Part shown: piece by piece, positions 2-22,609 of the stretch
How positions within the stretch are numbered: the stretch's first letter is position 1
How the letters are laid out: each line of letters opens with the position of its first letter
Source of the DNA: Chloroflexota bacterium
Lineage (GTDB): Bacteria > Chloroflexota > Anaerolineae > Aggregatilineales > Phototrophicaceae
Assembly (NCBI GenBank): GCA_028875245.1
Contig: JAPPEU010000011.1
Coordinates: 62,001-126,000 of the forward strand
Reading direction: 5' to 3'
Length of the DNA stretch: 64,000 nt
Made by a program: the position numbers and the translations under genes
The notes under the pieces: generated by a model
Seen by the model: only the letters and a program-made list of their open reading frames with translations
Database searches by the model: none
Told to the model about the DNA's origin: nothing

Positions 2-583
2 TTGGGGGAGATTCCCGAGGGGTGGGAGGTGAAGGAGTTGGGGGAGGTGGCAAGGCAATGCCGGTCAGTTGTAAAGCCGGAGGAGATTGACGCAGAGTCA
101 CCTTATATTGCGCTTGAACACATGCCCAAGCGTTGCATCGCGCTTACGCAATGGAGCAACGCAGATGGATTAGCCAGCAACAAGTTCAAGTTCGAGCAGG
201 GAGACATATTGTTCGGCAAACTACGACCGTACTTCCACAAGGTTGGCGTTGCTCCATTGAGTGGGGTGTGCTCAACAGACATCGTTGTTATGCGGCCCAA
301 TTCCAATCTGTGGTTTGGATTTGTCCTTGGTCATACATCTAGCCCAGAGTTTGTGGACTATACGGATGCTACGTCCACTGGCACAAGGATGCCGCGCACC
401 AATTGGTCAGACATGTCTCGTTACACAATCGCACTTCCAAGCATGGAAGTGTCCAAAGCCTTCACCGAACTGGTCGAGCCATGCGTTAATCGAATCGTAT
501 CGGCAACCCACGAGTCCCACTCCCTTGCCGCTCAGCGGGATGCCCTGCTGCCGGGGCTGGTGTCGGGAGCGGTTAAAGTCTAA
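2..583 (+). CDS. hsdS: Type I restriction enzyme specificity subunit HsdS, C-terminal part
   Basis: This is the C-terminal part of the subunit that selects the DNA target of a type I restriction-modification enzyme. The frame is already open at the window edge, so the apparent TTG start is probably internal and the first target-recognition domain lies upstream. One target-recognition domain is visible (it begins with PEGWEVKELGEV, with the usual GDILFGKLRPYFHKV strand in the middle). The conserved helix and tail AAQRDALLPGLVSGAVKV that end many HsdS proteins follow. The gene is followed 18 bases later by an ATPase gene and then by hsdR, so hsdM is expected upstream, outside the window. The family call is firm; the missing N-terminus is due to the window edge, not to visible damage. 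Confidence 0.9.
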   Translation: MGEIPEGWEVKELGEVARQCRSVVKPEEIDAESPYIALEHMPKRCIALTQWSNADGLASNKFKFEQGDILFGKLRPYFHKVGVAPLSGVCSTDIVVMRPNSNLWFGFVLGHTSSPEFVDYTDATSTGTRMPRTNWSDMSRYTIALPSMEVSKAFTELVEPCVNRIVSATHESHSLAAQRDALLPGLVSGAVKV

Positions 584-601
584 TCAGACCCAGAGCGTTC
601 C

Positions 602-2449
602 ATGTATACAAAGCGAATCCAGATAGTCAACTACGGACCTCTCGAGAAACTCGATATCGAGTTGCCCTTTGAGGGTGAGACTCCTAAACCAGTTATCCTA
701 GTGGGTGAGAATGGTTCTGGGAAGAGCATCCTCCTGTCTCATATTGTAAACGGACTCATCGAAGCTAAAGGAGTTGCTTTTCCAGAGTCCCCTGAAGTTG
801 AGCCGGGCAAAGTATACAAACTGCGAAGTAGTGCTTACATCAAGCCAGGCGGCGAGTACTACTTCGCCAGGGTTGACTATGATAGCTCGTTCTATACCAG
901 TGAAATAAGAACGCGGCGTAGCAAGCTGGAGTATCCTGACGTTCCTACGGGAATATCAGGGACTGCCGCCCAGACCTTGTGGGAGAAAATAGGATCAGAA
1001 GATAACGACCACTATGACTCAAACCTCGTCAACGATCGTAACACGACCAAGAGAGTCGAAGAGATATTTGCGGAAAACTGTGTCCTATATTTCCCATTCA
1101 ACCGGTTTGAGGAACCGGCTTGGCTGAATGAGGAGAACTTAAGAGCCCAAGCTCAATATATGGATGCACGCCATCTAGCTGGACAAACTAGTCGTAACGT
1201 TATTGCATCCTCGCCGCTCCACGCAAACCAAAACTGGCTGTTCGAGGTGGTTTATGATAGGGCTGCCTTGGAACTTCAGATACAGAATTTCCCTGTCAAT
1301 TCAGGCAACAATACGATACTACTTCCCTTGTTCTCAGGTTACTCAGGCGATGCAGCAAGGACATACGAAGCTGCATTACAAATAGTTAGAATCCTGTTAA
1401 GGAGGCACGATGTCAGATTTGGCATAGGTAAACGGCACAATAGAGTTGTTTCCATCATGGCAGACATGGACTCAGAGGCAAAACAGCTAGTACCGAATAT
1501 CTTCCAGATGTCCAGTGGGGAAACCTCTCTACTGAATCTGTTCCTATCAATCCTACGCGACTTTGACTTGTGCCATACTCCCTTTACTAGCACTAGTGAC
1601 ATACGCGGCATTGTCGTGGTGGATGAGATAGACCTACACCTTCACGCGGTTCACCAGCATGACGTTCTCCCGGAGCTAGTCAAACTGTTTCCGAAAGTCC
1701 AATTCGTGATTGCAACACACTCCCCGCTTTTCGTTCTGGGGATGCAAGGGGCATTTGGAGAAGATGGCTTCGCTTTGTACCGACTACCCGAAGGACAACG
1801 AATCAGTCCCGAAGAGTTTAGTGAATTTGGTGATGCTTATCAGGCCTTCACCGAAACGGTTAGGTTTTCGAATGACATGCGCGCGGCCATTGAAGAGGCG
1901 CAGAAGCCCATTGTCTTCGTGGAGGGATCAATCGATCAGAGGTACATCCATCGAGCTTCCCAGTTGCTAGGTAAAGAGGCAATATTTCAAAGGGTCAAAA
2001 TACTGGATGGCGGAGGCAAGGGGAATTTGGACAACATCTGGAAGCATAGAAACCTTCTAGACTCTATAGTCCACGAAGGCGTAGTGCTTCTGTATGACTG
2101 TGATAGGGGAATATCGCGTGAAGAGAATGGAAACTTCGTCAGGCAGGCCATTCCGAGGCAGGATGATCACCCAATCAAGAAAGGTATCGAGAATTTGTTG
2201 AGTAAAGAGACTTTGGAAAAGGCGCGACAACACAAACCTGCCTTTATCGATGTTGATCCGGGACGCACGAAAATAGTGCGTGGAGAACCTGAAATTGTTC
2301 CTGAGGAGTGGTCCATCAACAAGGATGAAAAAAAGAACCTTTGCGATTGGCTCTGCGCAAATGGCACAGAAGAGGACTTTCAGCAGTTCAGCGTGATTTT
2401 TGACTTCCTTGGGAACATGCTAGACCTGCAGTCAGTCCAAGTTGAATAA
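602..2449 (+). CDS. OLD-like ATPase/TOPRIM protein nested in a type I R-M operon
   Basis: This 615-residue protein has the architecture of an OLD-family nuclease: an ABC/RecF-type ATPase followed by a TOPRIM domain. The Walker A loop GENGSGKS is near residue 35. An ABC-signature-like SSGETS is near 303. Walker B, VVVDEIDLHLH, is near 338, and the switch histidine is in ATHSPLF. The C-terminal half shows the TOPRIM glutamate in VFVEGSIDQRYI (near 440) and the acidic pair in LLYDCDRG (near 497). Known relatives cut or nick DNA in phage defence. ATPase genes inserted between hsd genes are known elsewhere (for example the Rlo genes of Campylobacter hsd loci). The gene is visibly more A+T-rich than hsdR, which suggests separate acquisition. 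Whether it works with the R-M enzyme or independently cannot be read from sequence. Confidence 0.82.
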   Translation: MYTKRIQIVNYGPLEKLDIELPFEGETPKPVILVGENGSGKSILLSHIVNGLIEAKGVAFPESPEVEPGKVYKLRSSAYIKPGGEYYFARVDYDSSFYTSEIRTRRSKLEYPDVPTGISGTAAQTLWEKIGSEDNDHYDSNLVNDRNTTKRVEEIFAENCVLYFPFNRFEEPAWLNEENLRAQAQYMDARHLAGQTSRNVIASSPLHANQNWLFEVVYDRAALELQIQNFPVNSGNNTILLPLFSGYSGDAARTYEAALQIVRILLRRHDVRFGIGKRHNRVVSIMADMDSEAKQLVPNIFQMSSGETSLLNLFLSILRDFDLCHTPFTSTSDIRGIVVVDEIDLHLHAVHQHDVLPELVKLFPKVQFVIATHSPLFVLGMQGAFGEDGFALYRLPEGQRISPEEFSEFGDAYQAFTETVRFSNDMRAAIEEAQKPIVFVEGSIDQRYIHRASQLLGKEAIFQRVKILDGGGKGNLDNIWKHRNLLDSIVHEGVVLLYDCDRGISREENGNFVRQAIPRQDDHPIKKGIENLLSKETLEKARQHKPAFIDVDPGRTKIVRGEPEIVPEEWSINKDEKKNLCDWLCANGTEEDFQQFSVIFDFLGNMLDLQSVQVE

Positions 2450-2499
2450 GTCGCAGCCAGCGAACCTTTTGACGCCGAGACATTCCTTGAAAGAACGCT

Positions 2500-5400
2500 A
2501 TGACAGTTGTCATGATGGAAGAGAAAGATGTCGAAGAAAACGCCCTGACCTGGCTAGAGAGCCTGGGCTGGGACGTCGCCCACGGACCCGATATTTCGCT
2601 CAATGGCGATTTTCCCGAACGCGGAACTTACGAAGACGTCATCCTTAAGCTAAGGCTGCGCGACGCCCTCGGCCGGCTCAACCCCGATCTGCCCACCCAA
2701 GCGCTGGACGACGCCTTTCGCAAGTTGGCGCAACCCGAAGGCGCGACGCTGGAGGCGCGCAATCGCCGTTTTCATGCTTCGCTTGTGGCGGGCGTCACGG
2801 TGGAGTACCGCGCTGACGACGGTAGCATTCGCGGCGCGCAGGCTTTTGTGATTGACTATGAAGACGCCGCAAACAACGATTGGCTGGCGGTCAACCAGTT
2901 CACCGTGGTCGAGCAGGGTAATCAGCGCCGCGCGGATGTGGTGCTTTTCGTCAATGGCCTACCGCTTGGGCTGATTGAGCTCAAAAGCCCGGTTGACCCC
3001 AATGCGACCATCAGGAGCGCCTGGGACCAACTCCAGAACTATAAGTCGGATTTGCCGACGCTGTTTAGCATGAACGCAGCTTTGATTGTGTCGGATGGCT
3101 TGGAGGCGCGGGTTGGTACGTTCACCGCCGGGAGCGAATGGGTCAAAGCCTGGCGCTCGCTCCCCGGTCAAGCGTCAGATGACGGAGACAAGCCCGAGTT
3201 GCAGGTCTTGCTGGAAGGAATCTGCGAGCCGGCGCGCTGGCTGTCGCTCTTGCGCGATTTCATCGTTTTTGAAGACGATGGCGGCGCGCTGGTGAAGAAG
3301 ATGGCCGGTTACCATCAGGTCGGCGCCGTCGAAATGGCGCTGCGCGAGACCCTACGGGCGGCCGGGCGGCGAGAGACGGAACCCGGACAGCCGGCCGGTG
3401 GCAAGCGGGGCGATGGTCGTATCGGCGTCGTCTGGCATACACAGGGCTCGGGCAAGAGCTTGACTATGGCATTCTACGCCGGTCGCGTCATCCGCGAGCT
3501 CGACATGCAGAACCCTACGCTGGTGGTGCTGACCGATCGCAACGATCTCGACGATCAGCTCTTCGCCACCTTTTCTCGCTGTCAGGACTTGCTGCGCCAG
3601 CCGCCGGTTCAGGCTGAAAGCCGAGCTGACCTGCAGGCGAAACTGGCGGTGCAATCGGGCGGCGTCGTCTTCACGACCATTCAAAAGTTCTTTCCCGAGC
3701 AAAAGGGCAGCCAATACCCCCGTCTTTCCGACCGCAGCAACATTGTGGTGATCGCCGACGAGGCGCACCGAAGCCAGTACGCCTTCATTGCCGGCTTCGC
3801 CCGCCACATGCGCGATGCCTTGCCCCGGGCCTCCTTCATTGGCTTCACTGGCACGCCGATCGAGAAGGAAGACAGAAGCACGCGCGCGGTATTTGGGGAG
3901 ACCATCAGCATTTACGACATTCAGCGCTCGGTAGAGGATGGCGCCACCGTCCCCATTTATTATGAAAGTCGGCTGAACAAACTCGATCTCGACGAGGAAG
4001 AACGTCCCGAAATCGATCCCAATTTCGAAGATGTTACCGAGGGCGAGGAGTTCGAGCGCAAGGAGAAACTAAAGACGAAATGGGCGCAGCTTGAGGCGCT
4101 GGCGGGCGCGGAAAAACGTCTAATGCAGGTCGCTCAGGATATCGTGACGCATTACGAAGAGCGGCTGGAAGCCCTTGCGGGCAAGGCAATGATCGTCTGC
4201 ATGAGCCACCGCATCTGCGTCGACCTCTATCACGAACTGGTCCGTCTCCGACCAGATTGGGAGCGCGATGGCGAAATCAAGATCGTGATGACTGGCAATG
4301 CCAACGATCCGGAGGACTGGCGGCAGCACACCGGCAACAAATCGCGGCGCGAGGCGCTGGCAAAACGCTTCCACGATCCGGCGGATCCGTTCCGCGTCGT
4401 GCTCGTGCGCGATATGTGGCTCACTGGCTTTGACGCGCCAAATCTGCACACCATGTATATCGACAAGCCCATGCGCGGTCACAACTTGATGCAAGCTATC
4501 GCCCGGGTAAACCGGGTTTTCCGTGATAAGCCGGGCGGAAGGGTCGTCGATTATCTGGGGCTCGCGTCGGAATTGAAACGCGCGCTGGCGACCTACTCAG
4601 ACAGTGGCGGAGCTGGCAAAGCTGCATTGGAACAGGACGAAGCGGTCGCCGTCATGCTGGAAAAGTATGAAATCTGCTGTGCTCTTTTCCATGGCTTTGA
4701 CTGGTCACGCTGGTCGCAGGCGTCGGAAGTTGAACGGAAGAGCATTGAGGCGGCCGGCCAAGAGCATATTCTGGCGCAGGAAAACGGAAAAGATCGCTGT
4801 CTCAAATCCGTGCGAGAGCTTTCGCAGGCTTTCGCTCTATCCGTTCCGCATGAAGCGGCGATTTGCATACGCGACGACGTCGGCTTCTTTCAACGTGTCC
4901 GCGCCAAGCTTGCCCAGTCTGCGACGGGAAGCCCCAGACCCGAAGATGAAATGGACATTGCGATACGCCAGATCATTTCACGCGCAGTCGCGCCGGAAGG
5001 CGTCGTCGATATATTTGAGGCCGCTGGTCTCGACAAGCCTGATGTCTCCATTCTATCTGACGAATTCCTGGCAGAAGTGAAAGGCATGCCGCATAGAAAT
5101 CTCGCCGTTGAGCTGCTGCAAAAGCTGTTAAAGGGTGAACTGGCGACACGGCGTCGCAAGAACCTGGTCGAGGCGCGGTCCTTTGAAAAAATGCTGGAGG
5201 AAACACTGCGTCGCTACCAAAATCGCGCCATTGAGGCTGCCCAGGTAATCGAAGAATTAATTGAGTTGGCAAGGGAGATGCGCGACGCTGATAGTCGTGG
5301 CGAGGCACTGGGTCTAACTGAAGAAGAGCTAGCCTTTTACGACGCGCTTGGAGCCAACGACAGCGCGATCAAAGTGCTCGGTGATGAAACACTGCGTGAC

Positions 5401-18717: not shown

Positions 18718-19479
18718 ATGACCCAGATGGAAGGCAAAGCCGCATTGGTCACCGGCGCGGCATCGGGCATCGGGCGGGCGAGCGCGCTAGCCCTGGCGCG
18801 GGCGGGCGCGGGGGTCTGCGTCTCCGATATCGACGGCGAGGGCGCGCAAGAGACCGCGCGAGCAATCATCGACGCGGGCGGACGAGCCATCTCTGTTCCT
18901 TGTGATGTGACCAAGGCGGAAGAGGCGAAAGCAATGGTCGCGGCGACGGTCGACGCCTTCGGCCGGCTCGACGCGGCGATTAACAACGCGGGCATCGCCG
19001 GCTCCTTTGAGCGGCGCCTGCATGAAGCCGATGACGCCATGTTTGAACAGGTGCTCGCCGTCAACCTGCGCGGCGTCTGGCATTGCATGAAGGCTGAGCT
19101 GAATGTCATGCTGCCGCAGGGGCAGGGCGCCATCGTCAACATCGCCTCGGTGGCCGGCTTGATCGGCGCGCCCAAAGCGGCCGCCTATACCGCCAGCAAA
19201 CACGCCGTCGTCGGCATCACCAAGTCGGCGGCGCTCGATTACGCCAAACGCGGCATCCGCATCAACGCCATCTGCCCCGCTTACACTGACACGGCCATGG
19301 CGCAAAGCGCGATCGAAGGCAACCCGCTGATGGCGCAGATCATGCCGCGCGCCATTCCGATGGGCCGCCTGGGGCAAGCCGGCGAGATCGCCGAGGCGGT
19401 CGTTTGGCTCTGCTCGGATGCGTCCTCGTTTGTGACCGGGCATTCCCTGGTGCTGGACGGCGGCCTGTCGGCGACGTAG
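18718..19479 (+). CDS. Short-chain dehydrogenase/reductase
   Basis: This 253-residue oxidoreductase is a classical SDR. The nucleotide-binding TGAASGIG is near residue 14, the structural NNAG near 90, and the catalytic Ser in NIASVAG with Tyr-x-x-x-Lys in YTASK near 160. An aspartate ending the second strand (VSDIDG) favours NAD(H) over NADP(H). The C-terminal SSFVTGHSLVLDGGLSAT is also typical. The start ATG is preceded by GAGAGG. It is divergent from the Rieske oxygenase, fitting dehydrogenation of a hydroxylated product, but this link is inference. The substrate is unknown. Confidence 0.9.
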   Translation: MTQMEGKAALVTGAASGIGRASALALARAGAGVCVSDIDGEGAQETARAIIDAGGRAISVPCDVTKAEEAKAMVAATVDAFGRLDAAINNAGIAGSFERRLHEADDAMFEQVLAVNLRGVWHCMKAELNVMLPQGQGAIVNIASVAGLIGAPKAAAYTASKHAVVGITKSAALDYAKRGIRINAICPAYTDTAMAQSAIEGNPLMAQIMPRAIPMGRLGQAGEIAEAVVWLCSDASSFVTGHSLVLDGGLSAT

Positions 19480-19498: not shown

Positions 19499-19528
19499 TT
19501 GACAGCGCCGCGCTTACTTGCGTATACT
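19499..19528 (+). promoter_or_regulatory. Sigma-70-type promoter of the DUF4160-DUF2442 array
   Basis: TTGACA (19499-19504) and TATACT (19523-19528) are separated by 18 bases, close to the consensus of housekeeping promoters. Transcription would begin about ten bases before the ATG at 19545, leaving a very short leader. I see no comparably good promoter inside the array, so this may drive several of the cassettes. Confidence 0.7.
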
Positions 19529-19544: not shown

Positions 19545-19787
19545 ATGGTTACTGTCCTGAATAGACGGCGGCACGGATTCGATGTAAGAATCTATCCGGA
19601 TGATCATGAGCCGCCGCATGTTCACGTCTGGAAAGGCGGAAGGCAGGTCAAGATTGACTTGGAGACAATGGAAGTTATTTCGGCCAGCCACAAGTTTAAC
19701 AGTCGGGAAATAGGACAGATTGTTAAACTCCTGCTGGAACACGAAAGCCTGCTGTTAAGCGTCTGGAAGCGTCTGAGTATCTCGTAG
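19545..19787 (+). CDS. DUF4160 protein, array cassette 1
   Basis: This 80-residue protein shows the DUF4160 pattern: RRRHGFDVRIYPDDHEPPHVHVWKGG, then the short basic strand KIDLET and a helical end (NSREIGQIVKLLLEHE). The frame could be opened earlier by a TTG at 19518, but that lies within the promoter -10 region, so ATG 19545 is preferred. DUF4160 and DUF2442 genes often occur as adjacent pairs and have been considered toxin-antitoxin-like; no activity is established. It is followed by its DUF2442 partner after 35 bases. Confidence 0.85.
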   Translation: MVTVLNRRRHGFDVRIYPDDHEPPHVHVWKGGRQVKIDLETMEVISASHKFNSREIGQIVKLLLEHESLLLSVWKRLSIS

Positions 19788-19822: not shown

Positions 19823-20125
19823 ATGAAAAAGATTCCATTTGTTCATGATGACCGTTGCGCGCCCCGGGCAGTGCGCTTCACGGAATCACACCTAATGATC
19901 GAAATGGCGGACGGGCGTATATTGGGCCTGCCCCTCTATTACTTTCCGTGGTTGCTAAACGCCTCCGACGCAGAGCGACAGAACTTTCAACTTAACTACT
20001 TCACCGTCGACTGGGAAGAATTAGACGAAGGCATCGACATGGTCGCCATGCTCACCGGCTTATACATCAATGACAAATCACGCCCGAGAGAGGCGGTTGA
20101 GCGAGAAAGCGCCGCCGCTACTTAA
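19823..20125 (+). CDS. DUF2442 protein, array cassette 1
   Basis: This 100-residue DUF2442 protein has the family core VHDDRCAPRAVRFTESHLMI, ADGRILGLPLYYFPWLLNAS, and the ending WEELDEGIDMVAMLTGLY. DUF2442 proteins are small and predicted to bind partner proteins or DNA; many sit next to DUF4160. The ribosome site AGGAGG is strong but may be masked by a hairpin. The final codons and stop (CTACTTAA) are the start of a repeat that copies the 3' end of the DUF58 gene downstream of the array. Confidence 0.85.
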   Translation: MKKIPFVHDDRCAPRAVRFTESHLMIEMADGRILGLPLYYFPWLLNASDAERQNFQLNYFTVDWEELDEGIDMVAMLTGLYINDKSRPREAVERESAAAT

Positions 20126-20155
20126 CCAGACCAACCCGCCGCATTTTCGACTGCA
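20118..20155. repeat. Array boundary repeat, copy 1 (DUF58 3'-end copy)
   Basis: This 38-base segment, starting CTACTTAACCAGACCAACCC, matches 21069-21106 and the 3' end of the DUF58 gene (21692-21727). Read on the minus strand it encodes MRRVGLVK and a stop, exactly the C-terminus of DUF58, with one synonymous change (GGT for GGC). It separates cassette 1 from cassette 2. Confidence 0.85.
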
Positions 20156-20158
20156 AAT

Positions 20159-20398
20159 ATGGTCACGATACTGAATCGACGGCGGCATGGATTCGATGTT
20201 GTAATCTATACGAACGAACATGGCCCAGCGCATGTGCACGTTTTTCGTGGAGGAAACAAACTTAAGGCAGCATTGCAACCAGTGCGAATTGTGCACAATG
20301 ACGGCTTCAATGGCCGGGAGAGGCGCCGGATACGAGCGATTTTAGAGGAGAATCAAGCTCTATTGCTCCGCGAATGGTCGCGGCTTCATGGACACTGA
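20159..20398 (+). CDS. DUF4160 protein, array cassette 2
   Basis: This 79-residue DUF4160 protein, with RRRHGFDVVIYTNEHGPAHV and HVFRGGNKLKAAL, is a diverged paralogue of the one at 19545 (nearly identical first 14 residues, then different). The ATG lies just after a boundary repeat. The downstream DUF2442 gene begins 36 bases after the stop. Codon differences from cassette 1 are extensive, so the copies are not very recent duplicates. Confidence 0.85.
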   Translation: MVTILNRRRHGFDVVIYTNEHGPAHVHVFRGGNKLKAALQPVRIVHNDGFNGRERRRIRAILEENQALLLREWSRLHGH

Positions 20399-20434
20399 AA
20401 CAAACCAGAAAGCGAAATCAAGGGTAGTGAAAGC

Positions 20435-21076
20435 ATGCATGAGTGGCCGATCATACACGATGAACGTTGTCAGGCGCGTGAGGTCCGGTTCACCGGCGAG
20501 CACGTCAGGATCGTTTTGGCGGATGGGCGCATTATAGGCGTTCCTCTGTCCTGGTTTCCACCTATCCATCGCGCCACTGAGCAGCAGCGGCAGAACTACA
20601 CTTGTTTCGGCGATACCGTTTACTGGCACGATGTGGATGATGGCATAGACCTGACGGCAATGTTAACTGGCCTGTACATCGTGCAAGTTTCGCAGAGAAA
20701 CTCACGACCCAAGCCCCATGTGCCCAGCACCTGGCGATACCTTGAGGGCGGAGCAAGGCGCTCCAGCGACGGAAGTGAGGGTGTCCCATTCGTACACGAT
20801 ACACGAAACATTCCTGAAAAAGTGCGATATACGGACGAACATCTCGTATTCGACTTAGCAGATGGCCGTATCCTGTGCCTGCCAGCGCGTTTTTGCCTAA
20901 AGGTAGCGCAAGCCAGCGAAAGCCAGCGACAGAATTACCGGCTCAACGGTCTAATTGCTTGTTGGGAACAATTAGACGAGAGCATAAACCTCATTGCAAT
21001 GCTCACGGGATTCTATGACCACGACATACCGCATCCCAATAGCGTCATTGAAGCAGCCAAAGCCGCCGCTACTTAA
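20435..21076 (+). CDS. Tandem DUF2442 fusion protein, array cassette 2
   Basis: This 213-residue protein contains two DUF2442 domains. The first (about residues 5-84) runs from IIHDERCQAREVRFTGEHVR to IDLTAMLTGLY. The second (about 118-195) runs from VPFVHDTRNIPEKVRYTDEH to INLIAMLTGFY. They are joined by a roughly 35-residue basic linker (NSRPKPHVPSTWRYLEGGAR). The second domain departs from the family at the LPxxxFPxLxxAS strand (LPARFCLKVAQAS) and at DExID (DESIN), so it may have a different partner or be degenerating. Stand-alone DUF2442 proteins are usually about 80-100 residues. The fusion could come from loss of an intervening DUF4160 gene. Confidence 0.8.
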   Translation: MHEWPIIHDERCQAREVRFTGEHVRIVLADGRIIGVPLSWFPPIHRATEQQRQNYTCFGDTVYWHDVDDGIDLTAMLTGLYIVQVSQRNSRPKPHVPSTWRYLEGGARRSSDGSEGVPFVHDTRNIPEKVRYTDEHLVFDLADGRILCLPARFCLKVAQASESQRQNYRLNGLIACWEQLDESINLIAMLTGFYDHDIPHPNSVIEAAKAAAT

Positions 21077-21106
21077 CTAAGCCAACCCGCCGCATTTTCG
21101 GCTGCA
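21069..21106. repeat. Array boundary repeat, copy 2 (DUF58 3'-end copy)
   Basis: This segment starts CTACTTAACTAAGCCAACCC. On the minus strand it again encodes MRRVGLVK-stop, here with TTA instead of CTG for leucine. It lies between the DUF2442 fusion gene and the broken third DUF4160 gene. Confidence 0.85.
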
Positions 21107-21109
21107 CAC

Positions 21110-21355
21110 ATGATCACAGTATTGTACAGACAGCGTCACGGTTATGATGTTCGAATCTACACTAAGGACCATCCGCCCGCTCATGCTCATGTGTGGAAGG
21201 GAGACAAAAATCTCCAAATCAATCTGATGACATTTGAGGTCAGCGATATTCGCGGCTACAATAGTAGAGAAATCAGATAGATTCGCAAACTGGTCGCCGA
21301 CAATAGAGTGTTGCTGCTCGACGTTTGGAAAGTAATACACGAAAGAGGAAATTGA
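21110..21355 (+). pseudogene. DUF4160 gene interrupted by one stop codon, array cassette 3
   Basis: From the ATG at 21110 the frame reads MITVLYRQRHGYDVRIYTKD, then HPPAHAHVWKGDKN, a clear DUF4160 protein. It is interrupted at 21278-21280 by TAG, where the intact paralogue has the glutamine of REIGQIVKLL. After the TAG the same frame continues with IRKLVADNRVLLLDVWKVIH to a TGA at 21353-21355. The other 80 codons are intact, so the damage is a single nonsense change (for example CAG to TAG), or the stop is read through. The partner DUF2442 gene starts 11 bases later. Confidence 0.8.
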
Positions 21356-21366
21356 GCAGGCTAGTA

Positions 21367-21699
21367 ATGACTGAACATAGCAATTTAGATCTGAAGCCAG
21401 TCATTCACGATACGCGCAACGAGCCCCAAGGCCTTAGCTTCACCGACAGTCATGTCATGGTTGAGTTGGCCGACGGCAGGATCATCGGTGTGCCATTGCA
21501 TTTTTTCCCCTTGCTGAAGGCCGCGAGCGACGAGGAGCGCCGGAACTTCAAGCTGGGCGCCTGTGATGTTTATTGGGAAGATATTGACGATGGCATTGAC
21601 TTGACGGCTATGTTGTCGGGTCTCTATCTTGACACCAAAATTGAGCACAGAGCGTATTTGAATAAACTAATCGCCGACCGCCACGCGACCACTACTTAA
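21367..21699 (+). CDS. DUF2442 protein, array cassette 3
   Basis: This 110-residue DUF2442 protein has VIHDTRNEPQGLSFTDSHVM, LADGRIIGVPLHFFPLLKAA and YWEDIDDGIDLTAMLSGLY. I prefer the ATG at 21367 (preceded by GAGCAGG) to the upstream GTG/TTG-type starts, because it begins after the broken DUF4160 gene. Its last codons overlap the end of the convergent DUF58 gene by eight bases. With its DUF4160 partner broken, it may be an orphan. Confidence 0.85.
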   Translation: MTEHSNLDLKPVIHDTRNEPQGLSFTDSHVMVELADGRIIGVPLHFFPLLKAASDEERRNFKLGACDVYWEDIDDGIDLTAMLSGLYLDTKIEHRAYLNKLIADRHATTT

Positions 21700-21727
21700 C
21701 CAGGCCAACCCGCCGCATATCGGACAG
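21692..21727. repeat. Array boundary repeat, resident copy inside DUF58 3' end
   Basis: CTACTTAACCAGGCCAACCC and the following bases are the original copy: they encode the C-terminal MRRVGLVK and stop of the DUF58 protein on the minus strand. The two other copies lie upstream at the cassette boundaries. Confidence 0.85.
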
Positions 21728-22609
21728 AATCAGCCGCTCCCAGGGCGCATCCGTCACCAGCGGAAAATAGTGCGCGCCCCGCCGCAGGCACTCATCGCGG
21801 ATCTCATCGCGCCAGGCGGCCACCCGCCGCTGATACAAGCCGCGCATCGCCCCATCCAGCGTCACCTCTTGTTTCGTTTCCGTCTCTATATCGATCAGGC
21901 TGAGGTCGCCGGTCGCTTGCGGCCGCACTTCCTCCGGCGCCAGCACATGCACAAAAGCCACCTCATGACCGCGGCTGAGCAAGGCGTTCAAGCCATCAAG
22001 ATAGCGCCCTTCGTAGGAGAACATGTCGCTGAGGACCAGCGTCAAACCGGGGCGGTGCGCCCGCAGCGCATAATCATCCAGGGCCGCGTCCAGGTCGGTG
22101 ATGCCCGCCGCGGCGATATCGGCGATGAAACCCAGCGCGGCGATGCCCCGCGCCCGGCCCCGCGTCGGACCGAATGTCGCGGCGCCCTGACCGTTGACGG
22201 CCGTCAGCACCAGCCGGTCATTGCTCGTCAACGAGATATAAGCCAGGCCAGCGAGAATGCGTTTGGCGCAGGTCAGTTTGTGCTGGTCCGGCTCGCCTTC
22301 AGGCGGGAAGTCCATGCTGGCCGAGGCATCGAGGATCAGGTGCACCGCCAGGTCTTCTTCATCTTCCAGCAGCTTGATATAGGGCCGCTCCAGCCGAGCG
22401 TAGATATTCCAATCGAGCTGACGCAGGTCGTCGCCGGCGGCGTAGTTGCGGTAATCGGCGAATTCGATGCTCGAGCCGCGCTTGACCGAGCGCCGATCGC
22501 CTTTGATAGCGCCGGCCCGCACCTTGCGCGCGACCAGCATCAGCGGTTCCAGCCGGCGGCGGATGGCTTCCGGCAGGAGCGCCGGAGCAGAGGCTTGTTC
22601 TTGCGCCAC
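21692..22609 (-). CDS. DUF58-domain protein
   Basis: This 305-residue cytoplasmic protein has the DUF58 signature [21 protein letters not shown] von Willebrand A-like fold follows, with the metal-site motif DASASMDF in place of the canonical DxSxS. DUF58 proteins usually work with MoxR-type AAA ATPases in folding or assembly; no moxR lies in this window. The start is two bases after the stop of the GNAT gene, so the two are co-transcribed. The 3' end is the source of the repeats in the neighbouring DUF4160-DUF2442 array. Confidence 0.88.

Follow-up and report, generated by a model that had tools for sequence, protein, structure and literature searches.

The locus studied here raises the question of how the 3' end of a single gene came to lie at the boundaries between neighbouring toxin-antitoxin units, and what these copies record about the growth of the array. 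The window is the whole stretch of 64,000 nucleotides that was analysed. Its segment 18718-22609 consists of an SDR gene, three plus-strand DUF4160-DUF2442 units and a convergent DUF58 gene:

18718-19479, plus strand: SDR-family oxidoreductase gene (Pfam PF13561/PF00106), the conserved flank opposite DUF58; the surveyed array genomes have the same flank
19499-19528, plus strand: promoter-like site TTGACA-18-TATACT ahead of the array (agreeing with the consensus at 11 of 12 bases, a consensus match only)
19545-19787, plus strand: DUF4160 gene (DhiT-like toxin) of the SDR-side unit, type gamma according to the trees (PF13711, 3.3e-14)
19823-20125, plus strand: DUF2442 gene (DhiA-like antitoxin), type gamma (PF10387, 2e-13), with its stop codon within DUF58-tail copy 1
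20118-20144, minus strand: DUF58 3'-end copy 1, MRRVGLVK-stop, with GGT and CTG; similarity reaches ~34 bp
20159-20398, plus strand: DUF4160 toxin of the middle unit, type delta (PF13711, 5.4e-15)
20435-21076, plus strand: double-DUF2442 antitoxin, type delta, two domains in one 213-aa ORF (PF10387, 1.8e-20, two stretches)
21069-21095, minus strand: DUF58 3'-end copy 2, with GGC and TTA
21110-21361, plus strand: DUF4160 toxin of the DUF58-proximal unit, type alpha, with an in-frame TAG at 21278-21280; the ORF ends at 21280
21367-21699, plus strand: DUF2442 antitoxin, type alpha (PF10387, 8.3e-10), convergent with the DUF58 end and overlapping it by 8 bp
21692-22609, minus strand: DUF58 gene (PF01882, 2.6e-34), whose last codons (21692-21727) gave rise to the repeat

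Tail copies in the window

The 27-bp end of DUF58 (MRRVGLVK-stop) occurs three times in the window, at 20118-20144, 21069-21095 and 21692-21718, with 0 occurrences expected from 100 shuffles. Allowing up to three mismatches, we found no further copy anywhere else in the 4.2-Mb genome. Chance or a simple repeat as the source of the copies is ruled out by the shuffles together with this genome-wide uniqueness. All three copies read MRRVGLVK-stop on the minus strand and differ only in GGC/GGT and CTG/TTA, as a preliminary description of the locus had reported. DUF58 has GAT as the codon preceding the tail, and the two internal copies have AAA. For three random changes the probability of all being synonymous is ~0.02. 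The same description had identified the boundary copies as DUF58 tails. Their sequence bears this out, but they are not only that: read in antisense, the last 8 bases of the internal copies (TTAAGTAG) also complete the DUF2442 gene that precedes them and supply its stop codon. The middle and proximal toxins begin 14 bp past a tail copy.

The two internal junctions have 11 of 14 bases in common just ahead of the tail and agree with each other in 52 of 64 aligned columns, whereas each agrees with DUF58 in only 45 of 64-65 columns. They look like copies of each other. Furthermore, the window and its sister genome L034 are collinear through the alpha unit and its junction, and their divergence lies distal to it. 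As the junctions share sequence that is not from DUF58 and the two loci are collinear, it is not possible to treat the tails in the window as two captures that are independent and dated, and the earlier idea that each remnant marks one event is not supported here. The alpha unit is common to the window and the sister species and the DUF58-proximal unit is thus not demonstrably the newest.

Two features of the units themselves were also observed. The proximal DUF4160 gene is broken by the TAG, the only one within the domain in a whole-genome scan, while its antitoxin is open and the homologue in L034 is full-length. The double-DUF2442 antitoxin with a single DUF4160 is an old type that ten genomes in the set possess (the window and nine relatives).

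The array in related genomes

DUF58 loci with 5-kb flanks were drawn from Chloroflexota/Anaerolineae MAGs. All genomes are MAGs, in which identical tandem units could be collapsed, and the closest genomes compared are ~5% diverged. DUF58 had one match in 94 of the 98 genomes of the family. The arrangement SDR-[DUF4160-DUF2442 unit]n-DUF58, with n from 1 to 5, was present in 30 congeneric genomes including that of the window; judging by isolate names alone, many of these are sponge symbionts. In many relatives a leader similar to the promoter-like region of the window also precedes the SDR-side unit. No unit was seen downstream of DUF58 in 40 contrast loci (39 from other genera and one from the distant congener G063), some of whose contigs end early. 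Locus L060 has zero units and still keeps a stub resembling the end of DUF2442 beside DUF58; it has probably lost its unit.

The trees of toxin and antitoxin were congruent and separated types alpha, beta, gamma, delta, epsilon, eta, zeta and a few more. In the trees of both proteins the types cluster across genomes and not within one genome. The window has the order alpha-delta-gamma from DUF58 to SDR, and the antitoxins of the different units are 44-53% identical. With types this diverged, a single tandem duplication of identical units, which the preliminary description had named as the contrary case, is excluded. The antitoxin tree groups all array types with a second single-pair locus in one clade, separate from other genera. 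This second DUF4160-DUF2442 locus (L123, G000:C53:80510-80990) lies elsewhere in the genome, has no DUF58 tail, occurs in many congeners and forms a clade of its own. The best match of the gamma antitoxin beyond the genus among 396 genomes of the class had an E-value of 4.5e-13, compared to 1e-20 or better within the genus. We rejected the idea that units were captured from beyond the genus: no closer relatives were found in the family, in the 396-genome class sample, or among plasmids or phages. A search by sequence for solved structures of the array proteins returned none.

DUF58 fragments at the unit boundaries

Across ~30 unit boundaries we detected 19 clear and 3 marginal fragments of the DUF58 3' end, and 13-15 of the 17 multi-unit arrays carry such fragments at their boundaries. 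The remaining boundaries are decayed or tail-less. All fragments end at the DUF58 stop codon and their starts range from 22 to 135 bp ahead of it. Many short junctions have a near-identical breakpoint, in which the toxin ATG is followed after ~5 bp by CTGTCGGATATG. Distinct breakpoints were found in L048, L055/L061, L052 and L040, and the long fragments of L040 and L055 contain stops and frameshifts. A 3' fragment of the SDR gene accompanies the DUF58 fragment at the junction in L048, L055 and L061; in L048 the two adjoin directly and have a few bases in common where they meet. In L053 and L044 the DUF58 gene itself ends differently, with MRRAGLLS-stop and MRRAGLLK-stop, possibly through recombination with a decayed tail.

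We compared the remnants with complete DUF58 genes. For most fragments the nearest DUF58 is that of their own genome or of a sister, the main exception being L041, whose boundary tails match the DUF58 of L038 rather than their own. The proposal that each copy came from another lineage is not upheld by these matches. Relative to their own DUF58 all remnants together show 24 synonymous and 29 other differences (27% synonymous expected, p = 0.003); relative to the nearest DUF58 tail the numbers are 11 and 24. The synonymous excess shrinks against the nearest tail and hence gives no strong support for foreign donors.

Comparison of sister genomes

The clearest case of presence and absence is the pair L050 and L052, which are 94% identical in DUF58 and collinear but for ~977 extra bp right after DUF58 in L052. 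With L050 set against L052, one continuous alignment pairs -92..1870 with 885..2846. On both sides of the extra segment lie the final ~95 bp of DUF58 as a repeat, of which the empty L050 has one copy. We read the difference as an addition, or its reversal, the direction of change being one that we infer. Unit i is found only in L052. The current DUF58 end of L052 is that of its own clade, and of the two copies the remnant has diverged more; a foreign origin of that end was accordingly rejected.

Whole cassettes are swapped between collinear flanks in L043/L046 and L056/L059, and cassette content is unlike in 6 of 8 close sister pairs with collinear flanks. The divergence of units mostly follows that of the flanks. 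Recent transfer between lineages, as judged from unit identity above flank identity, was not shown, the excess being at most ~5 points. Judged from these alignments, the DUF58 3' end is a genuine recurrent growth point in the genus. The claim of a repeated insertion point is borne out by the fragments at ~22 of ~30 boundaries and by L050/L052.

Growth of the array

We consider it probable that this genus-specific DhiTA-type toxin-antitoxin array has grown and been shuffled at DUF58 by additive recombination free of an integrase. The incoming DNA would stem from the same locus, as a further copy or a different allele, and the join would be anchored in DUF58 on one side with little or no homology on the other. 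Each addition would gain a cassette and keep DUF58 intact, and the old 3' end would stay behind to mark the join. Units could then be copied, shuffled and removed by deletion and by homologous recombination through the linkers (the 5' end of the toxin gene, the leader, the tail and the 3' end of the antitoxin gene), and a dedicated recombinase would be unnecessary. The variable junctions suggest that some of the joining was illegitimate. A point against the model is that the recurrent near-identical breakpoint is unlike random end-joining, so that the model has to assume that an older junction was copied.

The strongest rival, which we hold possible if short of probable, is an ancestral long array: the DUF58 end was part of one old tandem duplication, differential loss followed, and the tails were homogenised by unequal crossing-over or gene conversion. 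The order eta-beta-alpha-delta-gamma-epsilon from DUF58 to SDR is conserved in 38 concordant against 1 discordant comparison (0 of 20,000 shuffles, with related genomes treated as independent). Loss from a long array would explain this order no less well than repeated addition, and we think that loss accounts for it better. The short breakpoint common to many type pairs, the resemblance of the two junctions in the window and the stub in the unit-free L060 point the same way. However, the distinct breakpoints in L048, L055/L061, L052 and L040 amount to several independent joins, and unit i is confined to L052. Addition and ancestral loss may both hold at different depths.

Serial insertion at DUF58, in which each event imports the tail of another lineage and leaves the previous tail as a marker, is unlikely. 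The tails of L041 that match L038, the purely synonymous differences in the window and the gain of a unit exactly at DUF58 in L052 would agree with it, but most tails match their own or a sister DUF58, L052 has kept the end of its own clade beside a more diverged remnant, and the alpha unit with its junction is collinear between the window and L034.

Overlap of the antitoxin stop codon with DUF58

In all 30 array genomes the stop codon of the proximal antitoxin starts at one fixed base within the Val-Lys codons of DUF58, giving an overlap of 8 bp. Read in antisense, GTT supplies TAA and GTC, the variant in 8 of the 30, supplies TGA. The third base of the Val codon was T or C in 30 of 30 array genomes compared to 15 of 40 in the contrast set (p = 6e-9, with related genomes treated as independent). 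GTG and GTA, which make up 21 of the 33 Val codons in the comparison set, were absent at this position from the array genomes. Nearly all units have the stop overlap at the same position, and several units without a tail use another stop.

This previously unreported overlap explains part of the tail pattern. With the antitoxin stop encoded by the antisense of the DUF58 end, each functional cassette physically contains that end, and the resident gene's end travels with each cassette. At a minimum, the overlap explains the final 8 bp of every tail, and the longer fragments are historical. It is quite improbable that the tails are kept purely for function, supplying an antitoxin C-terminus and stop codon whatever their history: the constant position of the overlap would suit this, yet ~8 bp would suffice where 22-135 bp remain, three genomes hold SDR fragments, several tail-less units use another stop, and the long fragments of L040 and L055 are disrupted. 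To return to additive recombination, every cassette would carry a piece able to restore the DUF58 C-terminus, and this end could for that reason be a self-restoring landing pad where toxin-antitoxin units build up and are reassorted across the genus, integron-like but integrase-free. We put forward this extension only tentatively and regard it as rather doubtful.

Comparison with known systems

A site-specific cassette system, integron-like or att-like and with the DUF58 end as its site, is scarcely credible: in its favour are that insertion recurs at one point, that the cassettes share an orientation, that a single promoter-like site lies at the opposite end of the array and that GTTAAGT resembles an attC core, but no integron integrase scored above the cut-off, 8 of 30 genomes have GTC in the core, fragment lengths spread over 22-135 bp, with SDR fusions among the fragments, and the cassette genes read toward the site and not away from it. 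In the 96% complete genome the search for IntI gave only a 46-residue match below the cut-off (23.6 versus 265 bits). An attC site has a GTTRRRY core and a fixed boundary, in contrast to the GTC variants and variable fragments seen here. Islands at gene 3' ends carry their own integrase and repeats of fixed length, while the array genes are DUF4160 and DUF2442 only and the lengths vary. The likeness to an attachment site suggested earlier therefore does not survive the length range, the SDR fusions in L048, L055 and L061 and the lack of an integron integrase above the cut-off. What the array has in common with an integron is toxin-antitoxin-like cassettes and growth at one point; it differs in the lack of an integron integrase above cut-off, the lack of attC and the reversed orientation.

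Insertion with long target duplication, reportedly described by Nobusato et al. in 2000 (cited in PMC3031569), shares with our locus the long direct target repeat, ~95 bp in L052. L052 is filled and has the long direct repeat and L050 is empty with a single copy, if the change ran in the inferred direction. As far as that account goes, the difference is that here the repeat length varies by event and arrays accumulate at one spot.

DUF4160/DUF2442 pairs constitute the DhiTA family. Growth inhibition and its neutralisation were demonstrated in Dickeya (PMC8198452), and in Thermus the first ORF was indicated to be toxic without the second (PMC12724237). By analogy with these tested homologues the window proteins would act as toxins and antitoxins. 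As in Dickeya dhiTA and Thermus PEM, the same two Pfam families adjoin in a short operon with the toxin first. Unlike those systems, our locus has up to five diverged units, double-domain antitoxins and a stop codon overlapping the neighbouring gene.

The closest precedents for the mechanism are the Vibrio cholerae T6SS immunity array and the minimal mobile element concept. The authors who described the orphan immunity-gene arrays of V. cholerae proposed that these arose by homology-facilitated illegitimate recombination (PMC5361080). Common to both systems are units added in sequence at a single locus, displaced 3' remnants and retained orphan protective genes. In our arrays the additions likewise left truncated 3' ends of a resident gene and the units are related to those of other genomes rather than to one another. 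Unlike in Vibrio, the pairs are toxin-antitoxin and not effector-immunity, and the displaced gene DUF58 stays intact. In so far as PMC3898611 describes the minimal mobile element of Neisseria (Saunders and Snyder 2002), varied cassettes lie between two conserved genes with no mobility gene seen. The whole-gene swaps in L043/L046 and L056/L059 are of this kind; compared with what that source describes, our arrays are additive and contain flank fragments, and are not the result of replacement alone.

The array is a sequence-readable record of how a toxin-antitoxin array grows without mobile-element genes, with flank fragments marking the joins. The debated role of homology-facilitated illegitimate recombination becomes testable in an uncultured symbiont group, and a search rule suggests itself: repeated 3' ends of a neighbouring gene at the boundaries of small-gene arrays. 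Antitoxin genes without a toxin were found within the array in L036, L048 (proximal), L050, L052 (second) and L061 (proximal), and are reminiscent of orphan immunity genes or of anti-addiction.
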